The notes beneath the pieces were generated by a model. The model searched no databases and was not told the origin of the DNA. It saw nothing but the letters and a program-made list of their open reading frames with translations. DNA of 64,000 nt from Bacillota bacterium. Lineage in GTDB: Bacteria; Bacillota_I; Bacilli_A; RF39; UBA660. This document shows positions 1-21,075 of this stretch, piece after piece. Positions within the stretch are counted from its first letter, which is position 1. Each line of letters opens with the position of its first letter. The position numbers and the translations under genes are program-made. Location: NCBI GenBank assembly GCA_015059485.1, contig SVAH01000002.1:1-64000 (forward strand), written 5' to 3'.

Positions 1-29
1 TTGTCAAGTATATATTTTTATGTTATCAT
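1..29 (+). promoter_or_regulatory. Promoter of small RNA, locus copy 1
   Basis: A -35 TTGTCA at 1-6 and a -10 TATCAT at 24-29 are separated by 17 bp, near consensus for the housekeeping sigma factor. It would start a short RNA at about 36. The same arrangement (TTGTCA, 17 bp, TATTAT) recurs at 20796-20824. The complement of 2-7 reads TTGACA, so a divergent minus-strand promoter could extend left of the window, as it does in the second copy. Confidence 0.7.
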
Positions 30-35
30 TTAATT

Positions 36-127
36 AGGTGAGAAACAGATATCCAATTTGGATAGATATTTACCACCTTTTGTGGGTAAACATCTTTACT
101 CGAGTTAGAGAAAGATGTTTTTTATTT
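36..127 (+). ncRNA. Putative antitoxin-like small RNA, copy 1
   Basis: A short transcript is predicted from the promoter at 1-29. It contains a small hairpin (TATCC/GGATA, about 50-65), a second hairpin (TTTACCAC/GTGGGTAAA, 69-90) and ends in a strong terminator: AAACATCTTT at 88-97 pairs with AAAGATGTTT at 111-120, followed by T-rich sequence. No SD-led ORF is visible in it. It converges on the 26-aa peptide gene and carries the repeat at 85-97, which is complementary to the peptide mRNA leader. By analogy with par/Fst type I systems it may be the antitoxin RNA. Boundaries are estimated. Confidence 0.6.
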
Positions 128-282
128 TAACCTAGAAGTTTTATTATTATGTATAATAAAATAAAAATTATTTTATAAAGTGTTGTGTCTTTTGTATCTT
201 TCTTCATAAAACTACCGCCTTTCAATTTTAAGTAAACCAAAACCCCCAAGTAATTCTCCAAGGTTAGGCGGTAAACATCTTT
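85..282. repeat. 13-bp direct repeat pair linking sRNA and peptide leader
   Basis: GGTAAACATCTTT occurs at 85-97 and again at 270-282. Because the two transcripts run toward each other, the first copy lies in the sRNA and the second is read as its reverse complement in the peptide mRNA leader. The two RNAs can therefore form 13 consecutive base pairs. This is the topology of the DRa/DRb repeats in the pAD1 par locus. Confidence 0.75.
127..207 (-). CDS. Small hydrophobic peptide (toxin-like), 26 aa, copy 1
   Basis: A 26-residue ORF starts at ATG 207-205 and stops at 127-129, just where the convergent sRNA terminates. The N-terminus is charged (MKKDTKDTT) and is followed by one hydrophobic stretch (IIFILLYIII) and a short tail, as in type I toxin peptides of the Fst/TxpA/Ldr kind, although no specific similarity is recognised. 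The SD is AGGCGG (220-215), an unusual variant that stays complementary to the leader segment at 266-273. The peptide at 20917-21003 has the same length class, layout and surroundings, which argues that this is a real gene. Membrane action is inferred, not shown. Confidence 0.65.
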   Translation of the reverse strand: MKKDTKDTTLYKIIFILLYIIIKLLG

Positions 283-20748: not shown

Positions 20749-20771
20749 ATACATTCCTCTATTCTAAGTCT

Positions 20772-20802
20772 ATTTTACCCCCCCCCCAGGTGTACTTGTC
20801 AA
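20772..20802 (-). promoter_or_regulatory. Promoter with G10 tract in the spacer (putative phase switch)
   Basis: Minus-strand -35 TTGACA (20802-20797) is consensus and -10 TAAAAT (20777-20772) is good, but the spacer is 19 bp because it contains ten consecutive G. Two fewer G would restore the optimal 17 bp. Homopolymer length change by replication slippage would tune or switch expression of the surface protein, as known for porA of Neisseria meningitidis. The -35 overlaps almost exactly the opposite-strand -35 of the sRNA promoter. Confidence 0.65.
20778..20787. repeat. Homopolymer C10/G10 tract
   Basis: Ten consecutive C on the plus strand are extraordinary in sequence this AT-rich. The run lies precisely between promoter elements of the surface protein gene. 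Its exact length is also the kind of feature sequencing can miscall. Confidence 0.9.
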
Positions 20803-20824
20803 GTATATTTTTTTGTGTTATTAT
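20796..20824 (+). promoter_or_regulatory. Promoter of small RNA, locus copy 2
   Basis: -35 TTGTCA (20796-20801), 17-bp spacer and -10 TATTAT (20819-20824). It matches the copy-1 promoter in sequence and spacing, and predicts a start at about 20831. Confidence 0.75.
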
Positions 20825-20830
20825 CTATTT

Positions 20831-20917
20831 AAGTGAGGAGCAGATATCCTTCGGGCTAGATGCTTACCACTTTGCGGTTAGCATCTTTATTCAATAAGAA
20901 TAAGATGCTTTTTATTT
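20831..20917 (+). ncRNA. Putative antitoxin-like small RNA, copy 2
   Basis: An ~87-nt RNA is predicted, with GTGAGGAGCAGATATCC near its 5' end (copy 1: GTGAGAAACAGATATCC), a hairpin GATGCTTACC/GGTTAGCATC, and a terminator AGCATCTT (20880-20887) with AAGATGCT (20902-20909) followed by TTTTATTTT. It ends at the stop codon of the convergent 28-aa peptide gene. GGTTAGCATC within it pairs with the peptide mRNA leader (GATGTTTACC) with one mismatch and one wobble. Role as antitoxin is inferred from layout. Confidence 0.6.
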
Positions 20918-21075
20918 TAAATTAAATATAGCAAGTAGCCAATAATCAGTAGTAAAATAAAAATTATTATACTTTGCAAAAATAACCTAGTATCCTTGTT
21001 CATTATAACTACCTCCTTTGATTATTAACCAAAACCCACCTGAATAATTCGCCCAGATAGTTGGAGGTAAACATC
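20876..21075. repeat. Direct repeat pair of locus copy 2
   Basis: GGTTAGCATC (20876-20885) and GGTAAACATC (21066-21075) are the diverged counterparts of the perfect 13-bp repeats of copy 1, in the same places: one in the sRNA, one in the antisense of the peptide leader. Confidence 0.65.
20917..21003 (-). CDS. Small hydrophobic peptide (toxin-like), 28 aa, copy 2
   Basis: A 28-residue ORF (MNKDTRLFLQ, then SIIIFILLLIIGYLLYLI) with a polar, charged start and an uninterrupted membrane-spanning tail. ATG 21003 follows a perfect AAAGGAGG SD at 7-9 nt. The reading frame, the MxKDT start, the SD-sequestering leader, and the sRNA that ends at the stop codon are all shared with the 26-aa peptide at 127-207, while much of the third-position and residue sequence has diverged. 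It resembles type I toxins in size and topology; no match to a named toxin is recognised. Confidence 0.7.
   Translation of the reverse strand: MNKDTRLFLQSIIIFILLLIIGYLLYLI

Follow-up and report, generated by a model that had tools for sequence, protein, structure and literature searches.

Promoter homopolymers that govern surface-protein genes have been described in several bacteria. In Neisseria fetA slippage of a poly-C tract between the -10 and -35 elements is established, and the length of the tract sets transcription (PMC5320596). The locus described here resembles Neisseria fetA/frpB and porA in having a homopolymer between the -35 and the -10 (PMC5320596); however, those are single outer-membrane-protein genes of a Gram-negative pathogen, whereas here a multigene family of low-GC Bacilli is involved. 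In Mycoplasma hyorhinis, according to a secondary account (PMC10502178, citing Citti and Wise 1995), every vlp promoter carries a homopolymeric A tract and indels in it switch transcription. The likeness to vlp, as far as that account describes it, lies in a surface-protein family in which each gene has its own promoter homopolymer. The contrasts are that the tract is poly-A in a wall-less pathogen as against poly-G here, and that the Vlp proteins, which are lipoproteins, have repeats of variable size. The proteins considered here lack a lipobox cysteine and are predicted to combine a coiled coil with exchangeable tips. Further, unlike vlp, the family genes studied here are scattered over many contigs. 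The present system is one that works like vlp but lies outside the Vlp family.

Within the Bacilli, a length-variable intergenic homopolymer with a measured effect on transcripts is known from Spy1336/R28-Spy1337 of Streptococcus pyogenes (PMC7098570). It shares with our locus its occurrence in Bacilli and the position 5' of a surface-protein gene, but it is a T tract between two genes and concerns one locus only (PMC7098570). The arrangement TTGACA...Gn...TAAAAT, with variable length behind identical flanks, was itself recovered in streptococcal orthologs (L350-L354) and in paralogs of S. sciuri (L252, L260, L264). The genes downstream of the streptococcal poly-G spacers are, however, unrelated to the family studied here, and we located no published study of these spacers. 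For uncultivated gut Firmicutes, the open-access literature (subscription journals and bioRxiv being outside the scope of the search) yielded no description of poly-G promoter spacers. This fits the rarity of such reports remarked upon in the preliminary description of this DNA, yet the arrangement is common in the genomes of these organisms. The mechanism is already known; its extent in uncultivated Bacilli seems to have gone unreported.

The G10 promoter and its predicted surface protein

The window, i.e. the whole 64-kb stretch of DNA that was analysed, is part of a contig (C12) of a draft genome of 1.41 Mb in 35 contigs that is 74% complete. Direct reading of the minus strand around position 20800 gives the order TTGACA-AGTACACCT-GGGGGGGGGG-TAAAAT-AGACTTAGAATAGAGGAATGTATATGAAG, with a -35/-10 spacer of exactly 19 nt composed of nine mixed bases and ten G (Table 1). 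The same reading confirms both the coordinates and the counts of the preliminary description, which had set the two promoter elements 19 bp apart with ten G between them. The tract is the sole run of at least eight G in the window; dinucleotide shuffles of the window give a mean of 0.08 matches to such a run, and none of 100 shuffles reaches the observed three (overlapping) matches. The usual intramolecular G-quadruplex needs four separate G-runs, and a G-quadruplex reading of the tract was dropped because one run cannot provide these.

Table 1. Coordinates of the promoter, its gene product and the adjoining candidate module (nucleotide positions in the window unless residues are given)
Feature	Position	Strand	Remarks
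-35 element TTGACA	20802-20797	minus	6/6 vs consensus; same in paralogous promoters
G10 homopolymer GGGGGGGGGG	20787-20778	minus	within spacer 20778-20796
-10 element TAAAAT	20777-20772	minus	5/6 vs consensus; conserved in paralogs
Shine-Dalgarno GAGG	20759-20756	minus	7 nt 5' of probable start ATG 20748
Surface-protein gene, 200 aa	20146..20748	minus	start probably second ATG (20748)
N-terminal membrane helix	residues 4-28		AlphaFold2 model
Coiled coil, 60 residues	residues 40-100		AlphaFold2 model
C-terminal beta-sandwich domain	residues about 105-199		AlphaFold2 model
Putative antitoxin RNA promoter TTGTCA/TATTAT	20796-20824	plus
Structured RNA, putative antitoxin	about 20826-20920	plus	overlaps 28-aa ORF; fold z-score -2.9
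28-aa hydrophobic ORF, putative toxin MNKDTRLFLQSIIIFILLLIIGYLLYLI	20917-21003	minus

The ORF finder starts the downstream gene at 20754, which gives 202 aa. Its product was modelled with AlphaFold2 from a 13-member family alignment (mean pLDDT 79.8, rising to about 90 in the C-terminal beta-sandwich block) and is predicted to be a surface structure comprising an N-terminal membrane helix, a coiled coil and an extracellular-type beta domain. The earlier designation as an anchored surface protein stands as regards the anchor, which would be the N-terminal hydrophobic helix, and does not extend to an LPXTG-type C-terminal tail, which is absent from the end of the protein (...SGTITYIACR). A lipobox cysteine is likewise absent from its N-terminus (...SVYAARKYY...). 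Searches with Pfam, NCBIfam and PHROGs returned coiled-coil background matches only, those from Pfam and NCBIfam falling below the curated cut-offs. In a Foldseek search of a viral library the C-terminal part matched phage tail-fibre domains over roughly 100 residues (best E 7e-4), with rmsd values of 3.3-4.1 among the better matches; we read these weak matches as a moderate fold similarity only. A Foldseek search against the PDB gave no significant match, the best being galectin-7 at an insignificant E of 0.13, and a lectin fold for the tip domain is not claimed. Since a coiled coil and a tail-fibre-like C-terminal domain occur together in the model, the protein can be pictured as a stalk that is anchored in the membrane and bears a putative binding tip.

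Poly-G spacers across the paralog family and other Bacillota

Pattern-search counts over the draft genome, in which homopolymer lengths are consensus values, recovered nine runs of at least eight G. All nine lie in -35/-10 spacers directly 5' of members of the same surface-protein family, which has about 16 genes in this genome; contig C19 ends within the family gene that lies behind its run. Eight of the nine promoters have the form TTGACAAGTAyACyT-Gn-TAwAAT, while the ninth, on C31, is arranged differently as TTGACA-AT-G10-TAGCATGA-TATAAT, with the tract again inside the spacer. The tracts are G10 in seven cases and G9 and G11 in one each. Two further members of the family have G7 tracts, and three have broken tracts (GGGAGTGGG, GGTGGGGTGG and GTGGGGGCAG), the last of which precedes a truncated paralog. 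Paralogous promoters with identical flanks carry G9 and G10, those with near-identical flanks G7 and G11, and the -35/-10 spacings across the family are 16, 18, 19 and 20 nt, straddling the 17-nt optimum. A 5' UTR/start motif (ATAGAGGAATGTATATGAA) is present 12 times in the genome. The family is modular, because its members have in common an N-terminal helix and a linker, YYASDIxYKxTTLDxALDTLYT, but differ in their C-terminal parts.

One contig of 38.6 kb (L325 and L326, G000 C3:1-38597) encodes four members of the family. Several others (C8, C9 and C19) terminate within a family member or close to one, a hint that the assembly breaks at the repeats of the family and that there are further members.

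Based on ribosomal protein L1, the nearest named genomes (70-74% identity) are MAGs that bear the label 'uncultured Bacilli bacterium', and the 'Lapin' names of their bins suggest that these relatives are from rabbit gut. The genome of the window would accordingly belong to class Bacilli and may fall in the RF39 group. The pattern TTGAC-N(3-16)-G7-N(0-12)-TANNAT was searched for in 386 genomes belonging to the same family, with its reversed form as the control. Matches were found in 124 genomes, covering 68 of 150 genera and exceeding 40 in some genomes, against about four genomes with one match each for the reversed pattern. A further sample of 392 genomes was drawn from the phylum, and each of these shares class or family with the genome of the window; a stricter pattern has matches in 22 of them, and its reversed form in none. 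Among 12 positive genomes with listed places, 66 of 95 runs of at least nine G lie inside a TTGAC...TANNAT spacer. Genome G021 of the same family has 38 runs of at least nine G with zero matches to the TTGAC-based promoter pattern; perhaps these are associated with a different -35 or another position of the tract.

Beyond the family, the matches listed in a database scan include MAGs named Lachnospiraceae, Clostridia, Bacilli and others, as well as named isolates of Streptococcus, Mediterraneibacter and Schaedlerella. A scan of viral contigs for the arrangement gave only nine scattered matches; therefore, these contigs provided no population sample. The products encoded behind the tracts, surveyed with one poly-G gene per genome (n=25), have a strongly hydrophobic segment within their first 70 residues in 21 of 25 cases, as compared with 15 of the 56 ORFs in the window (27%; p=4e-9), so that the tracts favour genes for membrane or secreted products. 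In the relatives, poly-G genes include those for type IV pilin-like proteins (GFTLIELLAVI) and large secreted proteins, and in another genus (G232) they include homologs of the window's own surface-protein family (MKKIVFGFIIGVLVSGGVVYATTLIDSKDVTYTPSNNEFNANNVEDALDKLY).

Tract length, promoter spacing and competing explanations

Differences in tract length behind closely similar flanks recur at several levels of relatedness. Among 12 groups of promoters with identical flanks in a single genome, hand-picked and thus illustrative, 10 contain more than one tract length; the large groups from G080 and G182 consist mostly of one length. The streptococcal orthologs L350-L354, from five genomes and with 1-10 substitutions per 460 nt of flank, have tracts of G11, G11, G10, G8 and GAGGGGGG (GAG6), giving spacings of 20, 20, 19, 17 and 17 nt, respectively; L350 and L353 differ in the flank by one substitution and in the tract by three bases and the interruption. 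The paralogs of S. sciuri have the same flank with G14, G15 and G8. In the window's own lineage, hypervariability of the tract is supported by these comparisons of sequence, short of being demonstrated because some genomes of the family are nearly constant in length. As for the streptococcal copies themselves, the gene behind the tract (MEQFNQEQLYGVV...) is a non-surface-looking one, and in one copy the interrupting A seems to have fixed the spacing at its 17-nt optimum.

The position of the tract and the spacing of the promoter elements were compared at loci collected with a pattern demanding TANNAT at most 12 nt from the tract, and the -10 hexamers were scored with a fixed matrix without spacing preference against a shuffled control. 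Across genera, the placement of the tract ranges from directly after TTGAC to directly before the -10, while 24 of 36 genomes have their best -10 at a distance of 16-20 nt from the -35, as against 21% of shuffled controls (p=3e-9, mode 19). In Streptococcus, the same holds for 14 of 18 (p=1e-8). Spacing that is held while the tract moves is expected of a tract acting via the -35/-10 distance and not of a position-fixed binding site.

This observation bears on a rival proposal, in which a shared regulator uses the G-tract as a binding site or structural promoter element of fixed length, the family being co-regulated and no variation in length intended. Genomes G080 and G182, in which tens of promoters have one tract length (mostly G9 and mostly G10, respectively) and conserved flanks, speak for such an element, although length that is nearly constant over many promoters would be yielded by a fixed element and equally by biased slippage with an equilibrium length. 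However, from genus to genus the tract shifts its place in the spacer with the spacing staying at 16-20 nt, and its length differs behind identical flanks, so that the conserved quantity is the spacing and not the position of the tract. We consider a fixed element unlikely.

The near identity of promoter, 5' UTR and N-terminal coding sequence among the paralogs could also be taken to mean that the tract is neutral baggage carried along with recent gene duplications. This we regard as very unlikely, since the arrangement recurs in 68 genera with unrelated flanks and genes and also in Streptococcus, the window's own genome is otherwise without runs of at least eight G, and the tract has decayed before the truncated paralog.

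Promoter switching by DNA inversion, with the G-tract incidental, has to be weighed inasmuch as invertible promoters are, as is generally held, the best-known phase-variation device of gut bacteria (see the review PMC11868660); it is highly improbable for this promoter, around which no flanking inverted repeats, the mark of an inverton, were found. An origin in sequencing or assembly, such as the poly-G calls of two-colour chemistry, is scarcely credible even for draft genomes with inexact homopolymer lengths, given that the tracts are contig-internal and occur on both strands, each time framed by the same pair of promoter boxes, and that named isolates of Streptococcus and of Mediterraneibacter have them in their genomes too.

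Proposed switch, its reach and an adjoining candidate module

A slippage switch in the promoter spacer, controlling transcription of the surface protein, is in our judgement very probably the best explanation of these sequence patterns. The phase-variable tract put forward at the outset is supported in that all nine long G-runs precede paralogs, the spacing is held near 16-20 nt across genera and near-identical streptococcal orthologs are hypervariable in tract length. Mechanistically, replication slippage at this locus would add or remove single G residues in the G10 run, and each gain or loss would shift the distance between the perfect -35 and the good -10 around the 17-nt optimum. The predicted promoter output is weak or off at G10 (19 nt), intermediate at G9 (18 nt) and strong at G8 (17 nt), and the direction and size of this transcriptional effect, like surface display itself, are to be read as predictions. 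The gene product would be a membrane-anchored coiled-coil protein displayed on the surface with a variable tip domain. Since most of the about 16 family genes have their own G-tract, many combinations of displayed proteins would be expected in a population, with adhesion or escape from phages or immunity as a possible selective reason.

A 2025 review treats it as an open question why genomes rich in phase-variable loci seem confined to pathogens, and suggests bias in the databases as one of the causes (PMC11868660, section 8). In uncultivated Bacilli akin to gut MAGs the number of poly-G promoters in a genome ranges between a few and about 40, and they are located before genes for surface and pilin-like proteins. 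On balance we lean towards the view that a whole lineage of uncultivated gut-type Bacilli with reduced genomes possesses large poly-G-spacer phasomes, which would occur at lower density in other Bacillota as well. A 1.2-Mb genome would have up to about 40 surface-protein promoters that switch independently; most of these would default to the weak 18-19-nt spacing, and each cell would show only a few of its many coiled-coil proteins, whose tips would be exchangeable and similar to tail fibres. If such switching is true, these bacteria would be as phase-variable as Campylobacter or Neisseria, and this would bear on the encounters of gut commensals with phages, antibodies and mucus.

Finally, a putative type I toxin-antitoxin module (20796-21003) adjoins the poly-G promoter, and searches of it against Rfam and NCBIfam gave no match. 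The -35 boxes of the poly-G promoter and of the candidate antitoxin RNA promoter overlap at 20796-20802 in a near-palindrome (CTTGACAAG), and because of this overlap the two divergent promoters could be mutually exclusive. The end element of the module has 10 copies in the genome; of the nine copies read, several precede genes of the surface-protein family. The putative toxin/antisense-RNA module recurs at the left edge of the window (1-150), where this second copy has the element at 19-42 on the minus strand and a peptide ending in MKKDTKDTTLYKIIFILLYIIIKLLG.
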